DNA of 64,000 nucleotides from Proteiniphilum acetatigenes DSM 18083 (lineage in GTDB: Bacteria; Bacteroidota; Bacteroidia; Bacteroidales; Dysgonomonadaceae), in the NCBI RefSeq assembly GCF_000380985.1, contig NZ_KB905706.1, positions 1-64,000 on the forward strand, read 5' to 3'. Both the position numbers and the translations under genes were made by a program. This document shows, one piece after another, positions 25,143-43,603 of this stretch (position 1 is its first letter; every line of letters begins with the position of its first letter). The notes under the pieces are model-generated. The model saw nothing but the letters and a program-made list of their open reading frames with translations. It did no database searches and was not told where the DNA came from.

Positions 25143-25207
25143 ATTTATTTTTACTTAGAAATTGCTTACCTTTACAACGTGTTGAATTTGATACATTTTA
25201 CAAAAAT

Positions 25208-25253
25208 ATAAGATATTTTCTAAATATGCAAATTTTTAATAAGATATTTTCTA
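25208..25253. promoter_or_regulatory. Two 15-bp direct repeats, candidate repressor operators
   Basis: ATAAGATATTTTCTA occurs at 25208-25222 and again, identical, at 25239-25253, a 31-base spacing (about three helical turns). The core AGATATTTTCT is partly palindromic. The second copy ends 6 bases before the repressor start codon at 25260, and the pair fills the divergent promoter region. Autoregulation by the S24 repressor is the likely reading. Confidence 0.6.
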
Positions 25254-25259
25254 TGGTTT

Positions 25260-25964
25260 ATGTCTGCGCTTGACCGGTTAAAAGAGTACATTGATTATAA
25301 AGGCATTAGCATAAAACGTTTTGAGGAGAGTGTTGGCTTTTCAAATGGATCTTTTGGATCTCAATTGAGAAATAAAAAGACAATAGGTGTAGATAAATTA
25401 GAATATATCTTATCAGTTTATCCGGAAATCAATACTGAATGGCTTCTCACCGGTAAAGGGTCGATGTTAAAAGGGACAACACAACATGCGGTTGTAATGA
25501 TGGCGGATCAACCAGATTCATTCGTAGATAAGAAACAAACGGCCGGCAACGTTACTGATTTAACCCCGATACCGTTAATCAATCCCATTGCCATTGCAAA
25601 ATTCGGGAATCCGGATTTCCAGATAGCTCCCCAGGATATAGAGGATTATTACGTTATACCTAAATTTAAATACCATAAAGTTGATTTCATGATAGAGGTT
25701 AGCGGATCATCCATGTATCCGAAATACAATTCCGGTGATATAATAGCCTGTACCATTATAAGAGGGAGTCGTTTTATACAGTGGAATAAATGTTACGTTA
25801 TAGCAACCCGTGAGCAAGGCGTTTTGGTTAAAAGAATAAAAGAGGGTAAAGACAATAACAATATTCTTGCAGTGTCTGAAAATAAAGAATACCCTCCGTT
25901 TGAAATCCCCAATGATGAAATAACCGGTATCGCTATTGTGGTTGGAGTGATAATGTTGGAATAA
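25260..25964 (+). CDS. XRE-type repressor with S24/LexA-like self-cleavage domain
   Basis: A 234-residue phage-repressor-like regulator. The N-terminal 65 residues are a Bacteroidota-type HTH (RLKEYIDYKGISIKRFEESV, then NTEWLLTGKGSML). The C-terminal S24 domain has the catalytic serine in VSGSSMYPKYNSGD (Ser151) and the catalytic lysine in GVLVKRIKEG (Lys191). Such proteins lose repression after RecA-stimulated self-cleavage or act as plain transcriptional regulators. It is divergent from the small HTH gene with direct repeats between, and it converges with transaldolase after 43 bases. It could be the remnant of an integrated element or a domesticated regulator. Confidence 0.88.
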   Translation: MSALDRLKEYIDYKGISIKRFEESVGFSNGSFGSQLRNKKTIGVDKLEYILSVYPEINTEWLLTGKGSMLKGTTQHAVVMMADQPDSFVDKKQTAGNVTDLTPIPLINPIAIAKFGNPDFQIAPQDIEDYYVIPKFKYHKVDFMIEVSGSSMYPKYNSGDIIACTIIRGSRFIQWNKCYVIATREQGVLVKRIKEGKDNNNILAVSENKEYPPFEIPNDEITGIAIVVGVIMLE

Positions 25965-26007
25965 ACCCGGTATGAAACAAGACTCGATGATATTCACGGT
26001 GGCAGGA

Positions 26008-26964
26008 TTACAGCCTTTTCACCATTTGTTCTTCGAGTTTCTCTAAGTCTTTCGTAAAGTTTCTGATCCCTTCCGCCAGTTTTTCTGTGGCCATAGCATC
26101 TTCGTTGATCATCCACCGAAATGTTTTCTCATCGATACTGATTTTTTCAATCCCAGATTGTCTGGCAGCCTCCTCACTCAATTTCCGGACCAAGACACCT
26201 TCGGTATTCTCCAGCTCTTTGAGGAACTTTGGAGCAATAGTCAACAATTCACATCCGGCAAGTTCCACTATCTCTCCGATATTACGGAAGCTGGCTCCCA
26301 TCACCTGGGTCTTATAACCAAACTTCTTGTAATAATTGAAAATCTTTTTCACAGAAAGCACTCCCGGATCTTCATGAGCGGCAATTTCCGGAACACCCCG
26401 TTCTTTTTTGTACCAATCCAGAATCCGGCCCACAAAGGGAGATATCAGACGGACACCCGCTTCGGCACACGCAACCGCTTGTGCAAAAGAGAAGAGAAGG
26501 GTCAGGTTACAATGAATTCCTTCTTTCTCAAGTATTTCTGCGGCCTTTATCCCTTCCCAGGTGGATGCGAGTTTTATCAATATCCGTTCTCTCGAAATCC
26601 CCGATGTCTCATAGAGAGCTATCAATTCCCGGGCTTTGATCAGCGACGCTTCAGTGTCAAACGACAAGCGGGCATCGACTTCAGTAGAAACCCTTCCTGG
26701 AACAATTTCCAAAATCTTTAATCCGAAATTCACGGCCAACTTATCCATCGCTTTTGCCAATTGCCCGGATTTGCCGGTTAGCTGCGTTTTACCATAGGCA
26801 ATAGCATCATCTACCAGCGAAGCATACTTCGGGTCTTGCGATGCAGTATAAATCAAAGAAGGATTCGTAGTTGCATCGACCGGTTTGTATGCTTCAATAG
26901 AAGCAAAATCGCCCGTATCAGCCACTACTTTGGTATACAGCTTCAATTGCTCTAATAAATTCAT
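26008..26964 (-). CDS. tal: Transaldolase
   Basis: A 318-residue TalB-type transaldolase, close to the 317 residues of the Escherichia coli enzyme. The N-terminus has [13 protein letters not shown] and [13 protein letters not shown]. The Schiff-base lysine is Lys131 in [13 protein letters not shown], and [20 protein letters not shown] plus [10 protein letters not shown] are family motifs. It transfers a dihydroxyacetone unit between sugar phosphates in the cytoplasm. It is the last gene of the long minus-strand operon, 54 bases after the class II aldolase. This suggests the pathway needs C3 transfer and not only housekeeping pentose-phosphate flux. Confidence 0.95.
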
Positions 26965-26980
26965 AGGTCATTGATATTTA

Positions 26981-27003
26981 ATCAACCATCATCAACCATC
27001 ATC
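26981..27003. repeat. Short tandem repeat between aldolase and transaldolase genes
   Basis: ATCAACCATC occurs twice in tandem followed by ATC. It lies in the 54-base gap of the operon and resembles the AT-rich intergenic repeats elsewhere in this operon. Confidence 0.6.
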
Positions 27004-27018
27004 TAAAATGCATTATTG

Positions 27019-28317
27019 TCATTTTACATTAAACGCGATGCGCAGTTCGTCGATCTCCTTGTCACCCATGGGTTGCAAAGAGCCGATCGAAGAGGCCATC
27101 ACCAGCGAGTTAGCTGAAAATTCAGCTACTTCCAGATAGTCGAACGTATTCAACAATTTATCACCTGTCACAAAAACACTGTCGTTTTCTACCAGAATAA
27201 CCCGATTGTGGTTAAACATTTTCGCCACACTATCCACATCATTATAGATCAGCCCGAAAGGAATGGAGGGGACATCCTGGAGGAAGATCCAACTTTCGGG
27301 GATTGTGCGTACATCAAATTTTGAGCCGCTCACCGCGTGTGCCATCAGATTCACCGATTGTGTGCAGATGATAGAGTTGATATGCGGGTTCAACTGGTAA
27401 ATACGTTGATGCAGGGCTACCGACCTGCTGGGTGTTTTTCCCGCTTCGGCCATGCCATTCTTTATCTGGACGATATCTCCCGGTACAATATCCCATCGCG
27501 CTACATTACTTGGTGTAATCAGAAAATCATTACCTCTCCAACGTACAGACACCGTACCATAGGTCGATATCATCATCCCCTGATCACAGGCCCGACGGAT
27601 AATATTCACCATCTCCGTACGGATTGCCCGTTCATCGGAAGGATGCTCAATATCCATAAAATGAGAGATGTTTCTCGGCAAGTGATTTACATACTGTGCC
27701 ACTTGTTCATCAGTCAGATAATTCACCTGTCCCAGTCTTTTGGCATTCACAATAGTGCGGCAGCAGAACTCCAGCGTTTCGAACCGCTGATAGGCATCCA
27801 TCATATCGGTTCCACCCAGTACTATCCCGTGATTCTCCATGATCACCGCCTTATAACGGGTATCCTTGAACTCAAAAGCGATCTTCTCGCCCAGATCCTC
27901 ACTACCGGGAGTTCCATAAGGTGCAAATCCTATATCCCCGCAAATGTTGTGTGCCTGCGGAACGATCTTGGTGTCGGGAACAATACCTGCAATACTAAAA
28001 GCGACCAGTGCAGGCGGATGGGCGTGGATGATAGCGGTTATTTCGGGTCTGGCTTCATAAATAGCTTTATGGAAAGGGAGCTCCGAAGAGGGTTTATGCA
28101 CCCCGATAATGGTTCCATCCCTCTTCACCTGCATGATATCTTTGGTAGTAAGCGACCCTTTATCCACTCCCGAAGGGGTAATCCAAATATCGCCGTTTTT
28201 ATCCCTGATGGAGATATTTCCTCCGGAAGTAGTGGTCATCCCCCTGCTATATATTCTTCCGATGATCACATTGATCTGTTCCACCGGATGCATTAAATTC
28301 ACATCTAATTGTTTCAT
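27019..28317 (-). CDS. Class II aldolase/adducin-family protein with duplicated domain
   Basis: A 432-residue protein, about twice the usual length for the family. The first domain (about 10-215) has TSGGNISIRD, the catalytic Glu79 in KPSSELPFH, zinc ligands His98 and His100 in IIHAHPP, and His163 in MENHGIVLGG. It should be an active zinc aldolase acting on a phosphorylated or free ketose. The second domain (about 225-430) repeats the fold (GTVSVRWRGNDFLITPS), but its equivalent of the Glu reads TPSRSVALH and of HxH reads ICTQSVNL, so it has lost the active site. It probably has a structural or substrate-selecting role. The substrate is unknown. It is co-transcribed with the SorE-like gene upstream and transaldolase downstream. 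Confidence 0.88.
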   Translation of the reverse strand: MKQLDVNLMHPVEQINVIIGRIYSRGMTTTSGGNISIRDKNGDIWITPSGVDKGSLTTKDIMQVKRDGTIIGVHKPSSELPFHKAIYEARPEITAIIHAHPPALVAFSIAGIVPDTKIVPQAHNICGDIGFAPYGTPGSEDLGEKIAFEFKDTRYKAVIMENHGIVLGGTDMMDAYQRFETLEFCCRTIVNAKRLGQVNYLTDEQVAQYVNHLPRNISHFMDIEHPSDERAIRTEMVNIIRRACDQGMMISTYGTVSVRWRGNDFLITPSNVARWDIVPGDIVQIKNGMAEAGKTPSRSVALHQRIYQLNPHINSIICTQSVNLMAHAVSGSKFDVRTIPESWIFLQDVPSIPFGLIYNDVDSVAKMFNHNRVILVENDSVFVTGDKLLNTFDYLEVAEFSANSLVMASSIGSLQPMGDKEIDELRIAFNVK

Positions 28318-28344
28318 TTTTATTGAATAAAGAGTAAAGACTAA

Positions 28345-28430
28345 AATTGATTAGTAGATTTATCTATGTACTGATTAGCAGATTATAAACACTAATCAGC
28401 ATATCATCAAATCAGTAAATTATCACATCA
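28345..28430. repeat. Intergenic AT-rich repeat region (family 2)
   Basis: It contains CTGATTAGCAGATT and AAATTATCACATCAT, which recur with small changes at 33470-33529 (CCGATTAGCAGATT, GAATTATCACATCAA). Related text occurs at 36000-36033 and, inverted, at 49828-49850. No gene or promoter is evident. Confidence 0.6.
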
Positions 28431-29699
28431 TTATTTGCTGTTAGCCAGTAAAAAGGCCTCCGCTTCCACGCTCCACAATCCCTTATAGCGACTACAGATA
28501 ACAGCCAGTTCTTTAAAAAGTTCGTCGGTCTCACCAAGCTTTTCAAAGTCGGATATCGGAGTGAGCGGCATATCAATATGTGTATAGATCAGCTTCTTTC
28601 CACCCGGGATATTGGGCAGGTTGTTGGTCGCATCGGCTACTGCATTCAATCCACCAATATGGGTGATCAGTCCGGCTGGATCAAGTCCTTTACTCATAAT
28701 ATCGAGTGCTTCCACCATATCGTCGTTATTACCTCCACTGGTGCCGACAATATGTGTATAGGCATAATGTACATTGTAGAAGTTGAACGTGGCGCTGAAA
28801 TTGGGGTCACTGGGTCCGGCAAAGAAATTGAGGCAACCGTCGAATGCCAGTATAGCATCCCCCTGCTCTACTACCGGTCTGACCGGTGCGAAGACAAACA
28901 CATCATCATAACCGGAATTACCACTCAGAGTTTTAAGTTCTTTCACCGGGTCTTCCATCGCACCGGTATTGATATAATGGAGATCAATTCCCCTGGATTC
29001 GGCAAATTCAACCGTATAGATTGAGGCAGCCCTATCTAACCGGGCCTGGTCTACATCGGTCACCACCAACAGTGATGGTTTACGGTCTTCACGATGGAGC
29101 ACATAGTTGATAGCTGCAAGTCCCATTGGACCGACACCCGCAAGAATAGCCATCTTTCCTCCATCCACAATCTCCATCTTGTGCTTATAACTGCCGGGAG
29201 TAGTATGGTAGTTGGCATGCATCGCACCGATTACACAGGAGAGCGGCTCTGCCAGCGACGCAGGATAATATCCCTCACCCGTAAATTTCAATAAGCAGTC
29301 CTGCTCCATTACTTCGTTAGGAATAATCACATAGGTGGCATCTCCGCCGATATATTTGTAACTATAACCGGGAGCGCTCAGGATACCCACGGGGCCATTC
29401 TCGTAGTAGAGTGCCGGTTGAATGGAGAACTTATCCCCTGCTTTAAATTTATGAGCCCATTTGGAACCCACTTCCAGCAATTCACCGGCGAATTCATGAC
29501 CGATGATAATAGGATTTTCCGCTACGTCATCGGGAATACGCTTGTGATCCGTCCCTTGTGAAGAAGCTTTATAGGATGACATGCACAATGAATCGGTCAC
29601 CACTTTGGCCAGGATTTCATCCTCTTTGATGGGCGGCAAATCAAATTCTTCCAGACGCAAGTCTTTTTTGCCGTACAATCTAACTGCTCTCGTTTTCAT
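28431..29699 (-). CDS. Zinc-type alcohol dehydrogenase, L-sorbose-1-phosphate reductase-like
   Basis: A 422-residue medium-chain dehydrogenase started at the ATG at 29699 (MKTRAVRLYGKKDLRLEEF); nine earlier codons are open but unneeded. Catalytic zinc ligands are the Cys in SLCMSSYKA and the His-Glu pair in GHEFAGELLEVG. The structural four-Cys zinc loop of classical alcohol dehydrogenases is absent. The nucleotide-binding segment is LAGVGPMGLAAINYV followed by VVTDVD. These features match SorE-type proteins that reduce L-sorbose-1-phosphate to glucitol-6-phosphate. In this operon it probably interconverts a keto and a hydroxyl group on a sugar-phosphate or related intermediate. The exact substrate is inferred only. 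Confidence 0.85.
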   Translation of the reverse strand: MKTRAVRLYGKKDLRLEEFDLPPIKEDEILAKVVTDSLCMSSYKASSQGTDHKRIPDDVAENPIIIGHEFAGELLEVGSKWAHKFKAGDKFSIQPALYYENGPVGILSAPGYSYKYIGGDATYVIIPNEVMEQDCLLKFTGEGYYPASLAEPLSCVIGAMHANYHTTPGSYKHKMEIVDGGKMAILAGVGPMGLAAINYVLHREDRKPSLLVVTDVDQARLDRAASIYTVEFAESRGIDLHYINTGAMEDPVKELKTLSGNSGYDDVFVFAPVRPVVEQGDAILAFDGCLNFFAGPSDPNFSATFNFYNVHYAYTHIVGTSGGNNDDMVEALDIMSKGLDPAGLITHIGGLNAVADATNNLPNIPGGKKLIYTHIDMPLTPISDFEKLGETDELFKELAVICSRYKGLWSVEAEAFLLANSK

Positions 29700-29712
29700 A
29701 TAATTATTGTTA

Positions 29713-29743
29713 GAGCCAAGAACCAAGATCCAAGAATCAAGAC
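29713..29743 (+). repeat. Family 1 repeat, left arm flanking the four-helix-bundle gene
   Basis: It starts GAGCCAAGAACCAAGATC and ends CCAAGAATCAAGAC. It is an imperfect inverted copy of 30148-30171 on the other side of the small gene at 29785-30132. Confidence 0.7.
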
Positions 29744-29784
29744 ATGAGAGTCATGATTTAGGACGGTTATATGACAATTTTATA

Positions 29785-30132
29785 CTATAAAGTGTCCTTG
29801 AAACCATTTATCATACGCTGCAATTCTGATAGTTTTTGTTGGAATTGTTCATATGTTTCAGCTTCAATATATGATAATTTAAAAGATACCAGTAACTCTG
29901 TCTCTAATTCATAAGCGGATCCAAGTGATATTTCAAGAAAACGTGCAAAATCTTTATTACTTGACTTTGCTGAACCTTCGGCAATATTAGTAGGTATGGA
30001 AACTGCAGCTCTTTGCATTTGAGTAACCAATCCGAAACGTTCAATTTGAGGAAACCTATTGACTAGCCGGTATATATCAGCAACAAATTCCACTGATTTA
30101 TTCCAAATATCTAATTTTTTAAAATTATGCAT
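29785..30132 (-). CDS. Four-helix-bundle protein (23S rRNA intervening-sequence type, S23)
   Basis: A 115-residue protein that fits this family in length and motifs: FKKLDIWNKSVEFV, GLVTQMQRAAVSIPTNIAEG and ARFLEISLGSAYELETEL. These proteins form pentameric four-helix bundles. They are found inside 23S rRNA insertions, as the Avd accessory protein of diversity-generating retroelements, and as scattered free-standing genes. Here the gene interrupts a catabolic operon between the aldolase/SDR fusion and the SorE-like gene and is bracketed by inverted repeats. No reverse transcriptase or variable-repeat target is nearby, so it is not a diversity-generating system. Its function is unknown; it is likely a spreading element unrelated to the pathway. 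Confidence 0.9.
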   Translation of the reverse strand: MHNFKKLDIWNKSVEFVADIYRLVNRFPQIERFGLVTQMQRAAVSIPTNIAEGSAKSSNKDFARFLEISLGSAYELETELLVSFKLSYIEAETYEQFQQKLSELQRMINGFKDTL

Positions 30133-30147
30133 CTCAACTTGTCCTTT

Positions 30148-30171
30148 GTCTTGAATCTTGGTTCTTGATTC
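30148..30171 (-). repeat. Family 1 repeat, right arm flanking the four-helix-bundle gene
   Basis: GTCTTGAATCTTGG followed by TTCTTGATTC. Its reverse complement aligns with 29713-29743, so the two arms form an imperfect inverted pair around the gene. Confidence 0.7.
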
Positions 30172-30177
30172 TTTTGT

Positions 30178-32187
30178 CTAAGAAAGCATCACCTGCCCGC
30201 CGGTGATCGGCAAAGCCTGTCCTGTCTCACCGCACTGCTCCATCAGGTAAAGTACTCCCCTGGTTACATCTTCGGGCGTACAACCTTTTCCCATAGGGAC
30301 TTTAGATAAATAGAACGCTTTCACATCCTCTATAGTTTTTGCTCCCGGTACCTTACCTGCTTTCAGGTATTGCACAAAGAGCCCGTTTTCCGGATCACTC
30401 CAGAGAGGTCCTTCATAGAAGTTCCCCGGACAAACAGAGTTGACTTTGATACGGTATGGGGCCAGCTCCAAAGCAAAAGACTGGGTAAGCCCGATACCCC
30501 CGAACTTCCCTCCGGCATAGGCGAAATTGGCTTTACTGCCTTGCAGTCCCGATTTGGAATTGATCTGGATAATATCGGCATAATAATCGCCCAAAGCATA
30601 CTTTGTCTGCAACTTCATGATTTTGCTGACAATTTTCGTACAATAGAAGTAGGCGCTGTAATTTATTCTGGTGACGAAATCAAAATTCTCGGGTGTCATA
30701 TCGTCCAGATCACCCGCACGAAGCACTCCGGCGTTACTGATAAAGCAATCAATTGCCCCGAAATGGCATACGGTCTCGTGGATAAGATTCTCCAGGCTTG
30801 CCGTTTCAGCTACATTCGTTTTCACAAAAAAGGCCCTGTTGCTTTTCGCAATACGGTTGAACTCTTCGGCCGTGACCCTACCCGCCTCTTCATTCAGGTC
30901 GGCGATCACGATATTGGCTCCTTCCTGTAACAGGCATCGCCCGATCCCCTCTCCGAAACCCTGGGCAGCACCGGTAATCACAATGGTTTTATTTTCCGCA
31001 CGTCCCCGGGATATTCCTGCCGACACGCTACGGCGGTAGTTTTCCACCTCCCAGTTGTCGATAAAATCTATCTGCTCCTGCGTCATTGGGTGCGGTCCGC
31101 CGAATGAATGTGAAAGATAGGCTACTTTCATTGCGTCTTCAAACACATCCAGAATGATATCGCACTGTTTGGCATTATCACCTACAGCGACCAGTCCAAT
31201 TCCTTTTATCAGTATTACTTTAGGTTGATAACCCAGTTTCCCCGTAAACGAAGGGATCGTCTTCCGGGCTTCTTCCAACACGGCTTCGGGTGTCTCATCG
31301 TTCAGGAAAATATAATTCGATTTGCAATAAACAATGGCATCGGGAGTAAATGGTTTGGCAATATCCTGCTGTTTACCGGGATTATCGTAAAAATATTTGA
31401 TCAGTTCATTTTTCCTTACCGTCAGCGTTTTCAATCCGCTGCCAGACAGCATCATCCGAAGAGCCGGCAAGATTTCTTCTGTACAACGGCAGGTATCTCT
31501 TTCGCCGGAGGGTAACGGCGTAGAAACAGCCTGCTCCAGTTTGTGAAGTATCTCTGAATAGATCGACTGTACCTCTGCGATGGTAGTAGCAGCGACAAAA
31601 ATACCGTGGTTCTGCAACCAGATCACCTGGGGTTCCTCGGCGTATGCCGCACGATACTCTTTGATCCGGTCATATACCTTTTTGAATAGCACATAACCCG
31701 GATCAGTATATTCCACATACAATGCTTTTTCACCGAAAAGCCGTTTCAGTTCGGACTCTGCATTTTGAGCGCACATCAATCCGTTCACTGCCGTCGGATG
31801 CAGATGGACCACAAAAGGATAGTCAATCACATTGTGCATCGATGTCTCCACCGAAGGACGCTTCCCTTTGGTAAGGGTAGCTTCGGCCAGATCGTTCTTC
31901 ACCTGCTCTTCCCGCTCCGTCGAATTCGGACTATACATTTTCTCCGACATGATTTCGAGCTTATTTCTGTCGAGCACGGCAAAACCTTCTTCGGTAATCG
32001 TTGCCAATGCCGCGCCACTGGCCTTTACCCATATTTTCTCTTTATTCTTGTAGGATGTATTACCGCCACCAGCTATCACAAAACGACTGTCTTGTCCGTA
32101 GAACCGTGATATATATATTAAATCCCGTATTCCGAAAATGTCGTTTTCAGGTAGAAAGGTTTGAGAATGCTGTTCCATCTTTATCAT
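30178..32187 (-). CDS. Fused class II aldolase / short-chain dehydrogenase (RhaEW-like)
   Basis: A 669-residue two-enzyme protein. The N-terminal class II aldolase domain (about 20-390) has IAGGGNTSYKNKEKIWVKAS, Glu114 in PSVETSMH, His128 and His130 in FVVHLHPTA, and His194 in LQNHGIF, so the zinc site is complete. The C-terminal SDR domain begins TGAAQGFGEGIG (405-416), has INSKSGLQGSKANFAYAGGK with the YxxxK pair, and ends ITGGQVMLS. That end resembles sorbitol-6-phosphate dehydrogenase. The architecture matches RhaEW proteins, which cleave rhamnulose-1-phosphate and oxidise lactaldehyde. The rhamnose cluster in this window lacks its own aldolase, so this may serve it, or it may act on the unknown substrate of this operon. 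Starts at 32187 or 32178 are both plausible. Confidence 0.9.
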   Translation of the reverse strand: MIKMEQHSQTFLPENDIFGIRDLIYISRFYGQDSRFVIAGGGNTSYKNKEKIWVKASGAALATITEEGFAVLDRNKLEIMSEKMYSPNSTEREEQVKNDLAEATLTKGKRPSVETSMHNVIDYPFVVHLHPTAVNGLMCAQNAESELKRLFGEKALYVEYTDPGYVLFKKVYDRIKEYRAAYAEEPQVIWLQNHGIFVAATTIAEVQSIYSEILHKLEQAVSTPLPSGERDTCRCTEEILPALRMMLSGSGLKTLTVRKNELIKYFYDNPGKQQDIAKPFTPDAIVYCKSNYIFLNDETPEAVLEEARKTIPSFTGKLGYQPKVILIKGIGLVAVGDNAKQCDIILDVFEDAMKVAYLSHSFGGPHPMTQEQIDFIDNWEVENYRRSVSAGISRGRAENKTIVITGAAQGFGEGIGRCLLQEGANIVIADLNEEAGRVTAEEFNRIAKSNRAFFVKTNVAETASLENLIHETVCHFGAIDCFISNAGVLRAGDLDDMTPENFDFVTRINYSAYFYCTKIVSKIMKLQTKYALGDYYADIIQINSKSGLQGSKANFAYAGGKFGGIGLTQSFALELAPYRIKVNSVCPGNFYEGPLWSDPENGLFVQYLKAGKVPGAKTIEDVKAFYLSKVPMGKGCTPEDVTRGVLYLMEQCGETGQALPITGGQVMLS

Positions 32188-32265
32188 GTTTTTTATATGT
32201 ATTCAGTTTCGTAAGCCATATGATTGCAACTAAAGCAGAGACATTTAGATATTTTGTGGGGACCC

Positions 32266-33444
32266 TCAGTTCGAAATGAGTTGATCACCTAAAGCTTCCA
32301 GTTCATGCCGTTTAGAGCGGTCCGCATAACCGTTCTGATCTATATATCCGTTCAATCCCTGTTTTACTAAATGTTGATGTGCCGCAATGAGACAAGCCCC
32401 TTTGTAATTAATCTCCATAAGTTTTTCGGTCAAAGGTGCACCTCCCCGGGCAAATAGTTCAATTGGCTCCATTGCAGGCGTATTATGTTCACTGCCGAAA
32501 GTCACCACAAAACCCTGTTCATAAAGATAGCCGGCATATTTTTCCAAAAGCCGGACATCGTTGCGGGTTGTGATAAATTCAACCGAATGAAATCCCCGTT
32601 GCGTGAGCTGTTTGGCTACCCGTTCCGGATCTCTTTCAAAATCAGTATAATTCCCATTTATATCATCTGCTAAAAAGGGATAAGTAGGAATACCACCGGC
32701 AGCAATGATGATTTTCTGTACTGTCTCCATCGGCAGGAAAGCAGTAGCCTCTTCCGGAACAAATGCTGCCCCACCCGCTTTCAACAGGTTACCCCGGATC
32801 TCATTTTCCACGCCGGCAAGGTTATCCACCGCCGATTTCAGCATCTTTCCATCAAAGAGCAACTCCAACAATTCCTTTATTTTCGACTCGTCATTATCAC
32901 AAACTTCATAGACATTTATGCGCAACGCTTTTGCCAAATGGCGCTCACGAATTTGTCCTTTTGTCAATTCGTCGGTTATCCGTTTGAAATCAAGCTTAAA
33001 ACCACATTCTTTCCGTCGAAGCAGGCCGTTCAGTTTGTTGCACATTGCTTCTACCTGTCGATTGGCCTCATCCCGAACATTGGATAACATTGTTGCATAG
33101 GGCTCCTCTAACCGGAAAGGATATGACAATCCTTTTCCACTCAGATAGGTACGTCCCGGATTTGCAGGATCATTCACACGCAGTCCCGCTTTCTGGTCCT
33201 CTTCATTCAGGCTGATAAATTCGATACCGAAAAGAGGATAGAGTTGTCGCTTATTACAACCATCAGCCCACTCCTGATATCCTTCTGTAGTGTAAAAATC
33301 GTTTATTCCCACCACTTTTACATCCTCGGCAACCGCCCTGTCCAATGCATCATTGACATCGGCAAAGGCACTGAAAGAGTATGGTGTATGCAGGTGCGCG
33401 TTTACTTTTACAACAGCCGACCTGCCCAATTGGCTCATCATCAA
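32266..33444 (-). CDS. PHP-domain protein (predicted metal-dependent phosphoesterase)
   Basis: A 392-residue protein with the PHP motif HLHTPYSFSAF (His17, His19) near the N-terminus. Further probable metal ligands occur in VVGINDFYT, LFGIEFISL and TFGSEHNTPAMEP. PHP proteins bind a trinuclear metal site and usually hydrolyse phosphate esters. A long helical insertion (about 115-200, rich in Lys and Glu) separates the motifs. It lies between the fused E1 gene and the aldolase/SDR fusion. A cytoplasmic phosphatase acting on a pathway intermediate is the simplest reading. Nothing ties it to DNA polymerase or histidine synthesis. Confidence 0.82.
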   Translation of the reverse strand: MMMSQLGRSAVVKVNAHLHTPYSFSAFADVNDALDRAVAEDVKVVGINDFYTTEGYQEWADGCNKRQLYPLFGIEFISLNEEDQKAGLRVNDPANPGRTYLSGKGLSYPFRLEEPYATMLSNVRDEANRQVEAMCNKLNGLLRRKECGFKLDFKRITDELTKGQIRERHLAKALRINVYEVCDNDESKIKELLELLFDGKMLKSAVDNLAGVENEIRGNLLKAGGAAFVPEEATAFLPMETVQKIIIAAGGIPTYPFLADDINGNYTDFERDPERVAKQLTQRGFHSVEFITTRNDVRLLEKYAGYLYEQGFVVTFGSEHNTPAMEPIELFARGGAPLTEKLMEINYKGACLIAAHQHLVKQGLNGYIDQNGYADRSKRHELEALGDQLISN

Positions 33445-33469
33445 ATAATTAATTAGAATATTTACCGAT

Positions 33470-33529
33470 ATACCGATTAGCAGATTGATTAATCACCAAA
33501 TCTTCACATCATCGAATTATCACATCAAC
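33470..33529. repeat. Intergenic AT-rich repeat region (family 2)
   Basis: CCGATTAGCAGATT and GAATTATCACATCAA repeat the text of 28345-28430 with single-base changes. It fills most of the 85-base gap between E1 and the PHP gene. Confidence 0.6.
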
Positions 33530-35989
33530 TTAAACACCTTTCTTTGCTCTTCTGATCAACTCCCCATCGGTAAAGTTCTGTACGGGGATATAACCTTTAA
33601 GCGGTTGGATCCGTTCATTGATCATATCCAGGAACCAGTCTGGCTGGGGGAAGAAAGACTGCTCGAGTTCAAATGCCGGAGTGATCCAGTTGCGTGAACC
33701 CAACACACATACGGGTGCATCGAGCCAATCGAATGCGAGTTGACCGATATTGGCAGCGAGGTCATTAAGGAATGATCCACGTGCGGTGGCATCACCGGCA
33801 ACGATGATTTTTCCGGTTTTCTTTACCGACTCCAATACCTTTTCATAGTTGAAAGGTACCAACGAGCGGGCATCTATCACTTCTGCGCTCATACCGTATT
33901 TGTCTTCCAGTTCCTTCGCGGCTTCTAAAGCCGGATAGAGGGTATGGCCAATGGTCAGGAACGTAATATCCCTACCCTCTTTCTTCACATCCGGTTCACC
34001 AATAGGTATTTCGTAGTAACCGGCAGGAACACCTCCTTCATGGAACTGCTCACCTATATCGTATATACGTTGGCTTTCAAAGAAAATCACAGGATCGGTA
34101 CCCTGCAATGCGGTATTCATCAATCCCTTGGCATCATAAGGCGTCACGGGGAAGCATACTTTCAAACCCGGGATATGGGCTACAAGCGACGTCCAGTCCT
34201 GCGAGTGCTGTGCACCATATTTCGATCCCACGGAAACACGGACAACCACCGGCATTTTCAGCACATTCCCGCTCATTGACTGCCATTTGGGCAACTGATT
34301 AAAAATCTCATCTCCGGCACGGCCGATGAAATCGCAATACATGATTTCGGGAATCACACGCCCGCCGCACATGGCGTAGCCGATAGCCGTTCCCACGATG
34401 GATGCCTCTGAGATTGGCGAATTGAACAGGCGGTGATAGGGCAGTGACTCGGTCAGTCCTCCATAAACAGCAAACGCACCACCCCAGTCACGGTTTTCCT
34501 CACCGTAAGCGATCAGGGATGCATCCTTATAGAAACGATCGATAATCGCCTCGAAAAGAGCATCGCGCAATTGAAACTGTTTCATCTTACTGAACGGCTT
34601 ACCTTCAGCATCGAATGCAAAACGTTCTTTGTTTGCGATCTTTTTCACCCGTGGGTTTTCTTCCATCGGAATCAGCACCTCCGGTTTTTCATTGGAGAAA
34701 CTGTCCACCGAACCGTCAGAAAACATCATGTCGCCGATAACATCCGGATTCTCCATCTTTGGTGATATCTCATCATCGATCGATTTCAGGAACATTTCGT
34801 ATACCAGAGCCCGTATATTGTCGGAGATAGAGTCGAGTTCGGCCTGAGTAGCTACTCCCGCTTCCAGCAACTGCTCACCGTAGCTGCGGATACCGTCCTG
34901 CGATTCCCATGCTTCCACCTCTTCTTTAGAGCGGTACGACGAAGCATCGGAGGGTGAGTGTCCGCTATAACGGTAGGTGAGTACATCTAACAGGACAGGG
35001 CCTCTCTTTTCTTCGATCACTTTACGTTTACGCTTATAAGCATCGATAACAGCCAACGGATTATATCCGTCCACCCGTTCAGCGTGCATTTGTTCCGGAT
35101 TCACTCCGGCCCCGATACGGGCAGCGATACCATACCCCATGGTTTCACCACAGGTCTGCCCTCCCATACCATACTGGTTATTCATGATATTGATGATTAC
35201 CGGAAGACCACCTTTCATATCACCCTTCCAAAGTTCTTTGAATTGGTCCATTGCAGCAAAGGTGATTCCTTCCCACACCGGGCCACATGCCATGGAAGCA
35301 TCCCCGATATTTGCCACGACCAATCCCGGCTTGCGGTTCACTTTTTTGTATAAAGCAGCGCCGACGGCTATATCGCCCGATCCGCCCACGATGGCATTGT
35401 TGGGATAGACGCCGAACGGAGTGAAGAAGGCATGCATGGAGCCTCCTAATCCTTTATTGAAACCGGTTTTACGGGCAAAGATCTCGGCCAATGTACCATA
35501 TACCAGAAATCTTTTTGCCAGTTCTTTGACCGATCCTTCAAAATCTTTTCTCACGATCTCATAGATCACACCATCAAAAAAATTCTCCATGATATCCATG
35601 AGCTGATGGTCATCCAGTTGATGGATGGCTGACATTCCTTTGGCCAGGATTTCGCCATGTGAACGGTGGCTCCCGAAAATAAAATCGTCCACCGTCAGCG
35701 TCCAGGCCATACCCACTGCCGACGATTCCTGTCCGATAGACAAGTGAGCGGGACCGGGATGATTATAGGGAGTACCGTTGTATTCTCCCTGCGTCTTGAT
35801 CAGATTCAACATGGTTTCAAATTCACGGATCAATACCATATCATGGTAAATCGCCTTGAATTCCTCTGTGGTAAAATTCTCTTTTTCATCTTGTACCGTT
35901 TTCTGGTACTGGTTGACAGGTATCGGTTGAAACTCCACAAAGCCGGGTTTGCGTGCTTCGGTCGGATCTATAAGTTGAACTTTGGGCAT
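33530..35989 (-). CDS. 2-oxoacid dehydrogenase E1, fused alpha and beta subunits
   Basis: An 819-residue thiamine-diphosphate enzyme. The alpha half (about 45-420) has YNHPGPAHLSIGQESSAVG, GSHRSHGEILAKG (from 107), GLGGSMHAF, and the ThDP/Mg motif beginning GDASMACGPVWEG (229) and ending at NNQYGM (270). The usual GDG is GDA here. The beta half (about 475-819) has ALFEAIIDRFYKDASLIAYG, PISEASIVGTAIGYAM and GAQHSQDW. It decarboxylates a 2-oxoacid and passes the acyl group to E2 lipoyl groups. E3 and E2 genes lie directly upstream, giving a full complex. Whether the substrate is pyruvate, a branched-chain oxoacid or a sugar-derived oxoacid cannot be told; placement with aldolases argues for a pathway-specific one. 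Confidence 0.92.
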   Translation of the reverse strand: MPKVQLIDPTEARKPGFVEFQPIPVNQYQKTVQDEKENFTTEEFKAIYHDMVLIREFETMLNLIKTQGEYNGTPYNHPGPAHLSIGQESSAVGMAWTLTVDDFIFGSHRSHGEILAKGMSAIHQLDDHQLMDIMENFFDGVIYEIVRKDFEGSVKELAKRFLVYGTLAEIFARKTGFNKGLGGSMHAFFTPFGVYPNNAIVGGSGDIAVGAALYKKVNRKPGLVVANIGDASMACGPVWEGITFAAMDQFKELWKGDMKGGLPVIINIMNNQYGMGGQTCGETMGYGIAARIGAGVNPEQMHAERVDGYNPLAVIDAYKRKRKVIEEKRGPVLLDVLTYRYSGHSPSDASSYRSKEEVEAWESQDGIRSYGEQLLEAGVATQAELDSISDNIRALVYEMFLKSIDDEISPKMENPDVIGDMMFSDGSVDSFSNEKPEVLIPMEENPRVKKIANKERFAFDAEGKPFSKMKQFQLRDALFEAIIDRFYKDASLIAYGEENRDWGGAFAVYGGLTESLPYHRLFNSPISEASIVGTAIGYAMCGGRVIPEIMYCDFIGRAGDEIFNQLPKWQSMSGNVLKMPVVVRVSVGSKYGAQHSQDWTSLVAHIPGLKVCFPVTPYDAKGLMNTALQGTDPVIFFESQRIYDIGEQFHEGGVPAGYYEIPIGEPDVKKEGRDITFLTIGHTLYPALEAAKELEDKYGMSAEVIDARSLVPFNYEKVLESVKKTGKIIVAGDATARGSFLNDLAANIGQLAFDWLDAPVCVLGSRNWITPAFELEQSFFPQPDWFLDMINERIQPLKGYIPVQNFTDGELIRRAKKGV

Positions 35990-35999
35990 TTTATCTTGA

Positions 36000-36143
36000 T
36001 TTATTAATTTGCTAATTTATTGATTTGAAGATTATACTACACTCAGAAGTCAAGAAGTATAGAAAAGAGAAAATTTAGAAGTTTTAGTTCTTAATTCTAA
36101 GTTCTAAGTTCTAAGTTCTCAGTTCCAAGTTGTAAGTTCTAAT
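36000..36143. repeat. Intergenic repeat region between E3 and E1 genes
   Basis: The first part (36000-36033) is family-2-like, with TTAATTTGCTAATTTATTGA. The second (36084-36143) is a run of degenerate 8-base units of the form TTCTAAGT (TTCTAAGTTCTAAGTTCTAA, then variants such as GTTCTCAG and GTTCCAAG). Similar units occur at 55735-55770. No gene is present. Confidence 0.65.
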
Positions 36144-36154
36144 ACTCCTTTCCA

Positions 36155-37507
36155 CTATAAAAAGACGGTTTCTTTAATAATCTCACTCACGGTAGGATGC
36201 GGAAAGACCACTTCTTGCATCTCTTTCAGCGTCATTTCCTGTTCAATAGCGATACAGGCTCCGTAAATGATTTCGCTGACGGGATTACCCAGCATGTGTA
36301 CGCCGATCACCTCGCCATGCTTTTCACCGACCAGCACTTTGCACAGTCCGCTTCCGCCCTCGTTTTCAGCGACAAAACGTCCGGCATAAGCCATGGGTAA
36401 CTTGGCTACCTTATAGGCAATATTTTTTGCCTTGGCCGATTCTTCGGTCTCTCCTACTCCGGCCACTTCGGGATTGGTATAGACCACACCCGGAATGGCA
36501 TTATAACGCATGATATCGCTTCTGCCGGTGAGGTTATTCACCACCACCTCTCCTTCACGACTTGCCGTATGAGCCAGCAACGAAAAACCGGTTACATCGC
36601 CAGCAGCAAAAACACCGGGGACATTGGTACGCATCTTTTCATCCACCTTGATACCGCCACGCAATAACTCTACTCCCAGGTTTTCCAACCCGAATCCTTG
36701 CGTAACGGGACGACGACCAACACTCAGTAATATCTTTTCACCTTCTATTGTTTCCGTTTTTCCGTCTTTCTCAAACACGACCTTGTGACCATCTACCTGT
36801 GTCACCTTTGCGTTCAGATGGAACGTAATTCCTTTCTTTGTATAGATTTCCCGAAGCATGGCAGAAATCTCCACATCGAGTCCTCCAAGAATTTCCGGAA
36901 GCATTTCCACTACAGCAACCCGGGTTCCCAGACTGTTGTAGAAACTGGCAAACTCCATACCAATCACCCCTCCGCCAATAACAACAAGAGATTCGGGCCG
37001 TTCGGTCAGCTCAAGTATCTCGCGGTTGGTAACGATGATTTCTCCCGCTTCCTGCAGCCCTGGTATTGGAGGCACGGATGCTTCCGATCCTGTACAGATA
37101 AGGAGATTTTTTCCTATATATTTTTCACCATTACTGGTTATCTCAATCCCCTCCGATGAGCGTCCGTTGATAACGGCTTCTCCCTTTATCACCGTCACTT
37201 TGTTGGATTTCATCTTGCTTTCTACACCAAGTACGAGTTTACGTACCACTTTCTTTTTACGGGAGACCATTTTTCCATAATCAAAACGGATATTATCTCC
37301 AAAAACACCATAGAGATCCCCGTGCAAAGCGTTTTCATAAGTCTTGGCACTATAAAGCAGTGTTTTGGTGGGAATACAACCTTCATTCAGACATACCCCA
37401 CCCATCGCTTTTTTCTCAAACAGTATCACATTCAACCCTTTATGTCCGGCCCGTTCCGCCGCAACATACCCGGCAGGGCCTCCACCGATAATCAGTAAAT
37501 CGTACAT
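36155..37507 (-). CDS. lpdA: Dihydrolipoyl dehydrogenase (E3)
   Basis: A 450-residue flavoprotein that reoxidises lipoyl groups of E2 with NAD+. It begins with the FAD-binding LLIIGGGPAGYVAAERA, followed by the redox-active disulfide in GGVCLNEGCIPTK (Cys39 and Cys44). The NAD-binding site is VVIGGGVIGMEFASF, and a second FAD motif is VPGVFAAGDVTG. The C-terminal HPTVSE (His437, Glu442) supplies the catalytic base pair from the partner subunit. Length and motifs are normal. It lies between E2 (186 bases upstream) and E1 (165 bases downstream); both gaps are filled with repeats. Confidence 0.96.
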   Translation of the reverse strand: MYDLLIIGGGPAGYVAAERAGHKGLNVILFEKKAMGGVCLNEGCIPTKTLLYSAKTYENALHGDLYGVFGDNIRFDYGKMVSRKKKVVRKLVLGVESKMKSNKVTVIKGEAVINGRSSEGIEITSNGEKYIGKNLLICTGSEASVPPIPGLQEAGEIIVTNREILELTERPESLVVIGGGVIGMEFASFYNSLGTRVAVVEMLPEILGGLDVEISAMLREIYTKKGITFHLNAKVTQVDGHKVVFEKDGKTETIEGEKILLSVGRRPVTQGFGLENLGVELLRGGIKVDEKMRTNVPGVFAAGDVTGFSLLAHTASREGEVVVNNLTGRSDIMRYNAIPGVVYTNPEVAGVGETEESAKAKNIAYKVAKLPMAYAGRFVAENEGGSGLCKVLVGEKHGEVIGVHMLGNPVSEIIYGACIAIEQEMTLKEMQEVVFPHPTVSEIIKETVFL

Positions 37508-37520
37508 AATATTTTCTTTA

Positions 37521-37550
37521 GAGCCAAGAACCAGGAATCAAGAGCCAGGA
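37521..37550 (+). repeat. Family 1 repeat between E2 and E3 genes, left arm
   Basis: It starts GAGCCAAGAACCAGG and ends with a second GAGCCAGGA-like unit. It pairs as an imperfect inverted repeat with 37670-37695 (GTCTTGAATCTTGG, then CTCTTGGTTCTTA). Confidence 0.6.
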
Positions 37551-37574
37551 TTATAAAGGCTATATTCAGACCGG

Positions 37575-37667
37575 TTACCGGCATAATTTATTATTTAAAA
37601 CATTTCTAAAACCATTTACCATATATAACAACCAAGCACCCAACAATTCATTAAAACTTTGTATCTT
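37575..37667 (-). pseudogene. Possible remnant of a four-helix-bundle (S23) gene
   Basis: Between the two repeat arms, the minus strand reads a short frame with LLYMVNGFRNVLNN before a stop. This resembles the C-terminus of the intact protein at 29785-30132 (LQRMINGFKDTL). The bases around ACCATTTACCATA also resemble ACCATTTATCATA of the intact gene. The arrangement repeat, remnant, inverted repeat mirrors the intact element. The match is short, so confidence is low. Confidence 0.35.
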
Positions 37668-37669
37668 TT

Positions 37670-37695
37670 GTCTTGAATCTTGGCTCTTGGTTCTT
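37670..37695 (-). repeat. Family 1 repeat between E2 and E3 genes, right arm
   Basis: GTCTTGAATCTTGG followed by CTCTTGGTTCTT. It runs into the stop codon of the E2 gene (37694-37696). It shares the first 14 bases with 30148-30161. Confidence 0.6.
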
Positions 37696-39040
37696 ATATT
37701 TCAAATTCCAGATTTTCTATTTCTATGGCAATCTGCTTCAGGAAGCGTGTAGCTTCTCCTCCGTCTAATGAACGATGATCGTAAGTAAGACTCAGTCCGA
37801 TAAAAGGAACAAAAGCATATACATCGTCACCAATATCTTTTGGACGCAGTACGATGGTATTCACACCCAGGATAGCCGATTGAGGCAGGTTAATGACCGG
37901 CGTGAACATCTCCACGCCATAATTTCCCAGGTTCGAAACGGTAAACGAACCCGCTTCCGGAGAAAGTATATCGGGATTCACGCTTCCGTTCCTGCAAGCA
38001 GCAGCAATTTCCTTGAACTGTCGGGCCAAACCGGTAATGGACAGATCATCAGCATTACGTATGACCGGCACCATCAATCCTCTTTCGGTGTCTACCGCCA
38101 ATCCAAGATGTATTTTACTAAAATAGCGGATACTGTCACCCAGAAAATGGGTATTTACATTGGGAAACTTCTTCAGCGCCCTGATGACTGAGAAGCAGAC
38201 CATATCGTTCAATGTGATATTGATGTCAAGGCTTCCCTCTTCAAGCATTGCTTTTGCTTTTTTTCTAAGCACTAATATTCTTCTGGCATCCGCACCCAAA
38301 TGGTGGGTTAACTGCGCCGAATTTTGCAGGGAAGCGTGCATAGAACGGGCGATGATCTTGCGCATATTGGATATCTTCCGTTCTTCGTAATCCTTTCCGT
38401 AAACACTGTTCACAGGAACGGACAGATCGGAAGCCCGGGCCGTACCTGCAAGCCCCGTTCCGGACGACTGCGGCAGCATACCTTGTTCCGCAGCCAGTTT
38501 TTTTGCCAGCGGTGTCATCTTCGGTCGATCATGCAAGACCGCCTGTATATCCTTTTCTATAATACGTCCCTTAGGACCGCTCCCTGAAAGGCCGGAAGTA
38601 TCCACAGCGTTTTTCTCTGCCAATTTTCTGGCACGCGGGGAAACAGGACTTCTTCCCGATTGTACGGTAAAGGGGGTAGAACTCTCTTTTTGTTCTTGTT
38701 TTTCACTTGTTAAAGAGTCTGCAGGTCGGGATTCCATAGACACGCCTTTATTCCCCTCAGCCGGAGATTCACGCCCGACCAACAATGAAGAAATATCTTC
38801 TCCAGGTTCTCCGATCACCATCATATTTTCCAATACGGGCACTTCATCGCCTTCGCTGTAAAAACATTCGAGTACGACTCCCCCCGCAGGGGCTTCTTCT
38901 TCAAACGAAGCCTTATCCGTCTCATAAGAAAATAGTATATCTCCTTTTTGCACGGTATCACCTTTTTTCTTTTTCAGTTCGGTAATGATACAACTTTCCA
39001 CTGATTGCCCCTGTTTGGGCATGATTACTACAACTGCCAT
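37694..39040 (-). CDS. 2-oxoacid dehydrogenase E2, lipoyl acyltransferase
   Basis: A 448-residue acyltransferase, the core of the E1-E2-E3 complex. The single lipoyl domain has the modified Lys43 in SYETDKASFEEEA. A flexible linker leads to the E3/E1-binding domain (SPRARKLAEKNAVDTSGLSG, then PKGRIIEKDIQ). The catalytic domain ends with LTYDHRSLDGGEA (His422, Asp426) and shows FTVSNLGNYGVEMFTPVINL. It is the first gene of the long operon, with candidate promoters and a hairpin upstream. The acyl group is not predictable from sequence. Confidence 0.95.
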   Translation of the reverse strand: MAVVVIMPKQGQSVESCIITELKKKKGDTVQKGDILFSYETDKASFEEEAPAGGVVLECFYSEGDEVPVLENMMVIGEPGEDISSLLVGRESPAEGNKGVSMESRPADSLTSEKQEQKESSTPFTVQSGRSPVSPRARKLAEKNAVDTSGLSGSGPKGRIIEKDIQAVLHDRPKMTPLAKKLAAEQGMLPQSSGTGLAGTARASDLSVPVNSVYGKDYEERKISNMRKIIARSMHASLQNSAQLTHHLGADARRILVLRKKAKAMLEEGSLDINITLNDMVCFSVIRALKKFPNVNTHFLGDSIRYFSKIHLGLAVDTERGLMVPVIRNADDLSITGLARQFKEIAAACRNGSVNPDILSPEAGSFTVSNLGNYGVEMFTPVINLPQSAILGVNTIVLRPKDIGDDVYAFVPFIGLSLTYDHRSLDGGEATRFLKQIAIEIENLEFEI

Positions 39041-39060
39041 TTACGCATGATTTAAGTATG

Positions 39061-39068
39061 CAAATATA
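39061..39068 (-). promoter_or_regulatory. Candidate -7 element proximal to the E2 gene
   Basis: Read on the minus strand this is TATATTTG, a match to TAnnTTTG, with a TTG about 20 bases upstream inside the hairpin. It would give a leader of only about 13 bases before the start at 39040. Confidence 0.35.
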
Positions 39069-39080
39069 ATGAAAGCCGAG

Positions 39081-39110
39081 GGATAAGTCAAGCTTGCTTG
39101 AAGCTTATCC
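39081..39110. promoter_or_regulatory. Leader hairpin upstream of the E2 operon
   Basis: GGATAAG pairs with CTTATCC, and TCAAGC with GCTTGA inside it, with a 2-base bulge and a 2-base loop. If transcription starts at the distal promoter, this hairpin is in the 5' leader and could affect stability or attenuation. No U-run follows on the minus strand. Confidence 0.5.
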
Positions 39111-39130
39111 GAGGCGTATCTTATATTCTA

Positions 39131-39159
39131 CAAATATACATAATTTTGACTACCGTCAA
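39131..39159 (-). promoter_or_regulatory. Candidate distal promoter of the E2 operon
   Basis: On the minus strand the -7 element TATATTTG is at 39138-39131 and a TTG (-33-like) at 39159-39157, 18 bases apart. This fits the Bacteroidota promoter pattern and predicts a leader of about 85 bases containing the hairpin at 39081-39110. Confidence 0.5.
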
Positions 39160-39409
39160 CTGTGCTGAACTATGCTGACACAAAGATATCATTATCTATG
39201 GTAGAATCCAAAGATAAATGCCATTAAATTAATAGACAATATTTTCGGATATTTAAAGATCATTCTATTCATTACATTTAATTGAGCCACACAGAAAGCA
39301 TCGGCAAATATACAGAATTTGCTTTCGCTGTCGATTCAATAATTGATCTTTCATATATTCTTTTTGATACAATACTTTATTTTAAAAACAAAATTCATCA
39401 GATAAATAA

Positions 39410-41320: not shown

Positions 41321-41354
41321 TTAAACAATTCATTTATCACTCATTAAACAATAT

Positions 41355-43589: not shown

Positions 43590-43603
43590 TTCAATTAAAT
43601 TTT

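Follow-up and report, generated by a model that had tools for sequence, protein, structure and literature searches.

Which pathway could unite, in a single operon, a complete 2-oxoacid dehydrogenase complex with class II aldolases, two dehydrogenases related to enzymes of sugar or polyol phosphates, and a transaldolase? The question is raised by positions 26008-39040 of a 64,000-nucleotide stretch of Proteiniphilum acetatigenes DSM 18083 (contig NZ_KB905706.1, positions 1 to 64,000), referred to here as the window. A preliminary description of this DNA had suggested a catabolic unit leading from an unusual sugar, deoxysugar or sugar acid, by way of a 2-oxoacid, to an acyl-CoA. Comparison with other Bacteroidales genomes makes it very probable that the operon belongs to 6-deoxyhexose catabolism and that its substrates are L-rhamnose and L-fucose. 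Judged from sequence, we slightly favour the view that it would encode the lower part of a route in which the usual aldolase and lactaldehyde ending is replaced by cleavage of an acyloin; that E1-E2-E3 performs such a cleavage, a proposal made by analogy, has about even chances.

All nine minus-strand open reading frames (ORFs) were recovered, with intergenic gaps of 45-186 bp, and family searches agree with the labels first given to them. The first gene encodes the E2 dihydrolipoyl acyltransferase (37694-39040, 448 aa; PF00198, E3_binding and lipoyl domains), followed by E3, a dihydrolipoyl dehydrogenase (36155-37507, 450 aa; TIGR01350, 493 bits, cut-off 409), and by E1, a thiamine-diphosphate enzyme with fused alpha and beta parts (33530-35989, 819 aa; PF00676, PF02779, PF02780). 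Downstream lie a PHP-domain protein (32266-33444, 392 aa; PF02811, 27.8 bits, cut-off 26.4), a RhaE-like class II aldolase fused to a SrlD-like short-chain dehydrogenase/reductase (SDR; 30178-32187, 669 aa; PF00596 and PF00106), a four-helix-bundle protein of the 23S rRNA IVP/S23 type (29785-30132; TIGR02436), a SorE-family protein of the zinc-dependent medium-chain dehydrogenases/reductases (28431-29726, alternative start 29699), a two-domain class II aldolase protein (27019-28317, 432 aa; two PF00596 stretches) and a talAB-type transaldolase (26008-26964; TIGR00874, 501 bits, cut-off 396). The statement that no strong terminators separate these genes holds, since positions 25000-44500 contain 16 terminator-like sites against 16.9 in shuffled sequence and the six on the minus strand all fall inside ORFs.

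The gene set recurs well beyond this strain. Among 393 genomes of the order Bacteroidales, the window's own included, 50 matched the aldolase/SDR protein at E 1e-100 or better; 46 genomes carry PHP as well as aldolase/SDR, and each of the two occurs alone in four. When approximately 13-40 kb around the match was taken in 24 of the 50 genomes (some regions are cut by contig ends), the recurring block was E2-(E3)-E1-PHP-aldolase/SDR-SorE, with E1 and PHP each in 21 regions, E2 in 19, SorE in 18 and E3 in 7, the window excluded. A scan of named species with a PHP alignment gave the best 80 loci of 505 relatives, with Proteiniphilum, Petrimonas, Seramator, Paludibacter, Tannerella and Alistipes among them. 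E1 and aldolase/SDR were each seen in 68 of these loci, SorE and E3 in 54, E2 in 49 and the two-domain aldolase in 44, followed by RhaK (26), RhaI (18), RhaT (16), the S23-type protein (8) and transaldolase (4); all are lower bounds, because many contigs are short and for PHP itself the ORF picker gave a label in just 73 of the 80. Counting only loci with enough flank, 52 of 56 have E1 upstream of PHP, 56 of 59 have aldolase/SDR downstream of it and 48 of 52 have SorE there; from Proteiniphilum to an Alistipes metagenome-assembled genome the block keeps largely the same order. The two-domain aldolase, the S23-type protein and transaldolase are less constant than E1 and aldolase/SDR. The single-pathway idea was to be abandoned if these genes were not conserved together in relatives; E1, PHP, aldolase/SDR and SorE prove to be co-conserved, the core block is kept across many Bacteroidales, and chance clustering is rejected.

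The neighbours of the block point to the sugar. The preliminary description, seeing no kinase, isomerase or transporter inside the operon, had supposed that the entry substrate comes from another module; genes for all three, overlooked there, lie 9 kb away on the plus strand, as rhamnulokinase rhaK (48297-49820; TIGR02627, 537 bits, cut-off 528), L-rhamnose isomerase rhaI (49899-51191; TIGR01748, 613 bits, cut-off 585) and the L-rhamnose/H+ symporter RhaT (51195-52223; NF010022, 418 bits, cut-off 369). Of 37 loci with more than 8.5 kb before PHP, 27 contain rhaK, rhaI or rhaT. The block of Petrimonas sp. IBARAKI (L100; E2-E3-E1-PHP-aldolase/SDR-SorE-aldolase2-lipoate ligase homologue) faces rhaK-rhaI-rhaT, and in L102 the two sets form one co-directional run, RhaK-RhaI-RhaT-E2-E3-E1-PHP-aldolase/SDR-S23-SorE-aldolase2-lipoate ligase. 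Elsewhere the partner genes are those of fucose. L-fucose isomerase (fucI) and a rhamnulokinase-like gene stand immediately before E2 in L115; FucI, FucK, FucU and FucP, all above curated cut-offs, adjoin the block in genome G238; FucK and FucP above curated cut-offs, with a FucI recognised by PF02952 and 68% identity, adjoin it in G257; and G164 has the same fucI-fucK-fucP order by similarity. The window genome itself has two full fucI genes, one of them with fucP. As a separate observation, a GH28/rhamnogalacturonase-like gene lies between E1 and PHP in one locus (L101:7150-8526), in line with rhamnose from pectin.

Co-occurrence across the 393 genomes points the same way: PHP is present in 50, RhaI in 90 and both in 43. 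The 90 RhaI genomes, which include four with fragments or split pieces only (G014, G111, G239 and G375), divide into 38 with PHP only, 36 with a RhaD-like protein only, five with both and 11 with neither (Fisher p 2.6e-10); counted by genus (58), the figures are 27, 23, 3 and 5 (p 2.9e-8), and apart from this genus-level repeat the tests ignore tree structure. For canonical RhaD the threshold was E 1e-25 or better, set after seeing a gap from 4e-29 to 3e-13, and no genome passed the curated RhaD cut-off. Lactaldehyde reductase (TIGR02638) exceeds its cut-off in none of the 38 PHP-only genomes, as against 18 of the 36 RhaD-only genomes, although among the former G379 and G096 fall just under it and G331 further under. 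In the window genome no canonical RhaD was found, the best listed TIGR02624 match being the operon's two-domain aldolase (E 3e-7), and no FucO lies over the cut-off; its PF00596 proteins are the two of the operon and AraD. The entry substrate, left unnamed in the preliminary description, can thus be assigned to L-rhamnose and L-fucose from the rha and fuc genes beside the block and from co-occurrence.

A clue to what the operon does with these sugars comes from its SorE homologue. SorE and sorbitol-6-phosphate dehydrogenase together invert L-sorbose-1-phosphate to fructose-6-phosphate. The operon's protein is 53% identical over its full length to Klebsiella SorE, which bears out its labelling as SorE-like, 51% to E. 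coli YggP and 46% to a Lactiplantibacillus homologue; in the plasmid collection 16 records of SorE/YggP type score 354-447 bits, the other 14 matches listed reaching 90 bits at most. This similarity points to a ketose-1-phosphate reductase. E. coli yggP (L172:10001-11278) itself adjoins the cmtAB phosphotransferase system (PTS), a glpX-type phosphatase gene and epd, and one might guess that YggP too is a ketose-1-phosphate reductase.

In the route that we slightly favour, isomerase and kinase would yield L-rhamnulose-1-phosphate or L-fuculose-1-phosphate, the SorE homologue would reduce the C2 ketone to give a 6-deoxyhexitol-1-phosphate, and the SrlD-like SDR would oxidise C5 to produce a 1-deoxyketose-6-phosphate. 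This last compound would be an acyloin (CH3-CO-CHOH-R), which E1-E2-E3 could cleave to acetyl-CoA, NADH and a tetrose-4-phosphate, the latter being processed by PHP, haloacid dehalogenase (HAD), aldo-keto reductase or transaldolase-family enzymes. Acyloins are the substrate class of acetoin dehydrogenase, which cleaves acetoin. A bookkeeping script, using Fischer projections that we take to be correct, indicates that both sugars would give the same tetrose phosphate, because C4, their sole difference, becomes the aldehyde carbon; it would be D-threose-4-phosphate if SorE keeps its known stereochemistry. Of the unit originally proposed, the deoxysugar and the acyl-CoA end are retained, with the genes conserved together in relatives; a 2-oxoacid step we think less probable than a complex that cleaves a 1-deoxyketose phosphate directly.

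The fused protein invites a more conventional explanation. Its aldolase and SDR domains (residues 22-206 and 400-590 of 669) stand in the same order as in RhaEW, and what we take to be its aldolase motifs look intact. On that account the RhaE domain would split rhamnulose-1-phosphate into dihydroxyacetone phosphate (DHAP) and L-lactaldehyde, the SDR would form lactate, lactate would be oxidised to pyruvate, and E1-E2-E3 would serve as a dedicated pyruvate dehydrogenase (PDH) making acetyl-CoA, with SorE and PHP as accessories. This is the strongest rival to acyloin cleavage, although we regard it as rather unlikely. It draws support from the PHP-bearing operon standing in for RhaD, from the absence of FucO, which fits the oxidation of lactaldehyde, and from the resemblance of E1 to PDH E1 in family models, below their cut-offs. 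Yet it gives no role to SorE, which is nearly as constant as aldolase/SDR in the loci with enough flank. Nor was an ORF resembling the lactate genes LutABC detected in the 80 and 24 loci (blastp, 1e-10), whereas a Deinococcus RhaEW locus has LutABC. The fusion scores 232 and 235 bits against the RhaEW models TIGR02632 and PRK08324, far below their cut-offs of 568 and 1014.

Nor does this rival explain the aldolase-free fucose loci. In the fucI-fucK-fucP loci of G238, G164 and G257 the set E1-PHP-SDR-SorE is kept, and the locus contains no aldolase domain. Of ten PHP genomes searched for class II aldolases (PF00596), nine have one or more, and none was found in the G238 assembly (99% complete), which carries fucose genes. 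Three genomes (G379, G007 and G125) encode the aldolase half separately, closer to the rhamnose genes, and keep the SDR half beside PHP, SorE and E1. We read this as an aldolase that accompanies rhamnose and a shared part made up of SDR, SorE, PHP and E1. Two roles would fit the aldolases: they may serve a parallel conventional branch, or they may convert rhamnulose-1-phosphate to its C4 epimer, fuculose-1-phosphate. For the two-domain aldolase, likewise, either C4 epimerisation or cleavage of rhamnulose-1-phosphate is possible.

The split aldolases could also be taken to mean that two separate pathways lie side by side, namely rhamnose aldolase functions and an unrelated complex forming acetyl-CoA, co-regulated for growth on plant or mucin glycans. 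The departure of the aldolase towards the rhamnose genes in those three genomes, leaving SDR with E1, PHP and SorE, speaks for such an arrangement. Even after the split, SDR, SorE, PHP and E1 remain neighbours and adjoin fucose or rhamnose genes, and the order of the block hardly changes from Proteiniphilum to Alistipes, so that we think two unrelated pathways very improbable.

The E1-E2-E3 complex itself is complete, since family searches identify E1, a lipoyl-bearing E2 acyltransferase and E3, and both the lipoyl (ETDKAS) and the catalytic (DHRSLDGG) sites of E2, judged against what we presume to be the lipoyl and DHRSLDG signatures, look intact. A lipoate-protein ligase is often the next gene after the two-domain aldolase (the best family in three cases tested, below the model cut-off), and homologues occur in 26 of the 80 loci, which fits a dedicated lipoyl complex. 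The preliminary description had conceded that the single-pathway idea would fail if E1-E2-E3 were the only housekeeping PDH and were transcribed separately. Two further E1 alpha/beta pairs lie on contigs C1 and C17 of the window genome, and these pairs also count against the RhaEW explanation with its dedicated PDH; with the locus tied to rhamnose and fucose genes, a housekeeping PDH was rejected.

Relatives of this E1 outside the order were sought in the plasmid collection only. Four fused E1s encoded in sugar operons of rhizobial-type plasmids share 52-53% identity with the protein, as against 36-37% for the PDH-like E1 of its own genome and for an Enterococcus E1 from an operon with 2,3-butanediol dehydrogenase (37% in the Enterococcus case); in a phylogenetic tree it forms a clade with the four rhizobial-type proteins, the order among the other references being poorly supported. 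Each of the five alphaproteobacterial stretches opened encodes, after E1, a lipoyl-domain protein and an alpha/beta hydrolase. Among family models, acetoin dehydrogenase E2 fits best in the cases tested (the lipoyl domains of pRL8 and Pleomorphomonas, the hydrolases of Pleomorphomonas and pAt15955), each time below the cut-off, as expected of a split gene. The genes around these E1s encode xylulokinase, PfkB or FGGY kinases, an epimerase-like protein, mannitol dehydrogenase and ABC transporters. This E1 family is thus found in sugar operons, with acetoin-type partners in alphaproteobacteria.

Some plasmid operons deserve mention in their own right. Six from rhizobial-type or Arthrobacter plasmids (L164, L165, L166, L169, L170 and L176) carry E1 (split in L170, otherwise fused), a lipoyl protein, a hydrolase (except in L176) and sugar kinases, and their substrates may be 1-deoxyketoses. 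Two Sinorhizobium/Rhizobium operons with sugar regulators (L174 and L177) encode an oxidoreductase, E1 alpha, E1 beta, E2, E3 and a class II fructose-bisphosphate aldolase, and the E1 alpha of this operon type carries HRGHGHCIAKG.

The last step of the favoured route could fall to the PHP-domain protein, which is probably a metal-dependent phosphoesterase. Its AlphaFold2 model (mean pLDDT 91) finds RNase AM (9etk), 2yb1 and 3e0f/3o0f as its best matches in the Protein Data Bank (PDB), with TM-scores against 9etk, 2yb1 and 3o0f of 0.70-0.71 by target length and 0.52-0.54 by query length. By sequence it has no PDB match better than E 0.97 and no relative in the plasmid collection. That it acts as a phosphatase on the tetrose phosphate or another pathway intermediate is plausible. 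HAD-family proteins, an aldo-keto reductase and a fructose-6-phosphate-aldolase-like protein are present in subsets of loci and could share the presumed role of PHP.

The aldo-keto reductases bear on a further explanation, in which the complex still acts on rhamnose and fucose carbon, but in the form of some other acyloin or dicarbonyl (hydroxyacetone or methylglyoxal, for instance) that derives from lactaldehyde or DHAP; SorE and SDR would then interconvert small hydroxycarbonyls, and the aldolases would mop up a C1 or C3 unit. Methylglyoxal reductase is the best family, below its cut-off, for the aldo-keto reductases found in 6 of the 24 loci, and E1-type enzymes can cleave acyloins. The 53% identity to SorE, however, points to a ketose-1-phosphate; cleavage of hydroxyacetone would release formaldehyde, and no gene for handling formaldehyde was seen, though no search was aimed at one; and G238 is left unexplained, no class II aldolase having been found there to make lactaldehyde. 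We consider this explanation improbable, if slightly less so than that of two unrelated pathways.

Several observations weigh against acyloin cleavage of a 1-deoxyketose phosphate. Most copies of the block retain the RhaE domain, often with the second aldolase gene, and both would be superfluous to the proposed route. The fucI-linked loci L097, L115 and L138 conform as far as they can be read: the first two, where fucI accompanies a rhamnulokinase-like gene, still carry the fused aldolase together with aldolase2, and L138 is cut after PHP. The G125 cluster combines fucI with its separate aldolase gene; L097, L115 and G125 thus speak against a simple rule that ties the aldolase to rhamnose. RhaEW, which has the same architecture as the fusion, has been shown by others to make lactate (Rodionova et al., 2013, PMC3870299). 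The best PDB match of the SDR domain is a sorbitol-6-phosphate dehydrogenase (5o3z, 142.6 bits, the next scoring 106.7), and the domain is 33% identical to E. coli SrlD and 25% to SorD; two canonical RhaEW SDR domains, however, are 32% identical to SrlD and hence no less near to it, so that the argument from SrlD is weaker than that from SorE. The window E2 is a normal acyltransferase and not AcoC-like, the E1 tree fails to place the window protein with acetoin rather than pyruvate enzymes, and the HRxHG motif of E1 alpha had to be rejected as a diagnostic feature, the PDH-like E1 of the same genome having HRGHG. No recurrent tetrose-phosphate enzyme emerged from a family scan of 12 of the 74 unassigned operon neighbours and one further protein; only scattered genes were seen. 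The distribution, too, is imperfect: besides the five RhaI genomes with both PHP and RhaD and the 11 with neither, 7 of the 50 PHP genomes lack RhaI. Four of these have a strong FucI match (G118, G228, G238 and G370) and one has weak FucI matches only (G136), while G169 and G307 match neither RhaI nor FucI.

Beyond the rhamnose transporter gene the window continues with an AraC-family regulator (52442-53350, plus strand; PF12833, AraC_binding) and a GH78-type rhamnosidase. Between the operon and rhaK, on the minus strand and upstream of E2, positions 39410-48051 hold genes for a GxGYxYP protein, a GH92 glycosidase, a protein like mannitol-1-phosphate dehydrogenase (MtlD-like), a PfkB kinase, a D-lyxose/D-mannose isomerase-like protein and a LacI regulator. 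Neither this cluster nor the plus-strand genes on the rha side include an aldolase or a lactaldehyde reductase. The E1/PHP neighbourhood of G304 contains homologues of the MtlD-like protein, PfkB and the isomerase, that of G367 the first two and that of G223 the first, and L133 has a fragment of the isomerase; the cluster may be connected with this pathway or process its C4 product.

The remaining features are peripheral. A match to the Bacteroidetes-type promoter pattern TTTG-N20-TAnnTTTG, which we take to be the consensus, lies on the minus strand at 39181-39212, 140 bp before E2, and gives weak support to an operon promoter there; the window has four matches against 1.5 expected, and at least four were reached in 7 of 100 shuffles. 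A sigma-70 scan yielded nothing useful, and an Rfam scan of 25000-49000 gave no match at gathering scores. The S23-type protein is probably a passenger; in the relatives listed its gene lies at about the same spot, between aldolase/SDR and sorE, and it may be mobile or often inserted. Just past the operon end, at 25260-25964 on the plus strand, lies a repressor-like gene whose product, judged by eye, has a helix-turn-helix and an S24-type C-terminus. SDR matches within the first 800 bases of four assembly contigs (window positions 1-600; C4, C15, C9 and C23), in two pairs of equal or near-equal score, suggest a repeat that interrupts the assembly.

L-rhamnose and L-fucose rank among the main sugars of pectin, algal polymers and mucin; the textbook products of their anaerobic breakdown are 1,2-propanediol and lactate, which feed other microbes. 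If C5 and C6 instead went straight to acetyl-CoA, propanediol production predicted from rhaI or fucI would be wrong for many Bacteroidales, given PHP in 43 of the 90 sampled rhaI genomes. Rhamnose and fucose would converge on the same products, bypassing lactaldehyde and pyruvate; a carbon chain would be broken in a new way, by an acetoin-dehydrogenase-like complex; and it would be explained why many rhamnose users have no recognisable RhaD. The widest version of the proposal, in which such a complex, with thiamine diphosphate and lipoamide, is the sugar-splitting enzyme of the pathway across about half of the sampled rhaI Bacteroidales, used in place of RhaD, the rhizobial E1s act on other 1-deoxyketoses, and the rhamnose-locus aldolases could be a C4 epimerase, is tentative and in our estimate falls somewhat short of even chances. 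A search of the open-licence literature, by title and abstract opening, found no description of the gene set or of 1-deoxyketose-phosphate cleavage in sugar catabolism. At a minimum the cluster adds a variant to 6-deoxyhexose catabolism; it may also represent a new mode of sugar cleavage.

How, then, does the operon relate to systems already described? With the canonical RhaABD, FucIKA and FucO pathways it shares isomerases, kinases and transporters, unlike them in a genome where canonical RhaD was not found and FucO did not exceed the cut-off. It resembles RhaEW in having a class II aldolase-SDR fusion that is tied to rhamnose isomerase and kinase and replaces RhaD (PMC3870299). It differs in that its fusion is 24-27% identical to the members compared and far under the NCBIfam cut-offs, is paired with SorE, PHP and E1-E2-E3, lacks LutABC in the loci searched, and has an aldolase-free SDR counterpart in fucose loci. 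As in the sor operon, SorE, here 53% identical, neighbours an SDR of sorbitol-6-phosphate dehydrogenase type, the pair that there inverts a ketose phosphate, but the window operon has neither PTS nor sorbose genes and sits with deoxyhexose genes and E1-E2-E3. The likeness to acetoin dehydrogenase (AcoABC/L) lies in E1 alpha/beta, lipoyl E2 and E3, in the proposed acyloin chemistry and in the AcoC-like partners of the alphaproteobacterial E1 relatives, whereas the window E1 is fused with extra segments, E2 is a normal acyltransferase and acetoin or butanediol genes are absent from the operon. Finally, the rhizobial-type plasmid operons (those of pRL8 of Rhizobium johnstonii 3841 and pAt15955, for example) differ in having no SorE, aldolase/SDR or PHP annotated within 12 kb on each side and a lipoyl domain and hydrolase in place of E2, but they share with the Proteiniphilum operon a full-length E1 of 52-53% identity, set there among sugar kinases, an epimerase-like protein and ABC transporters.

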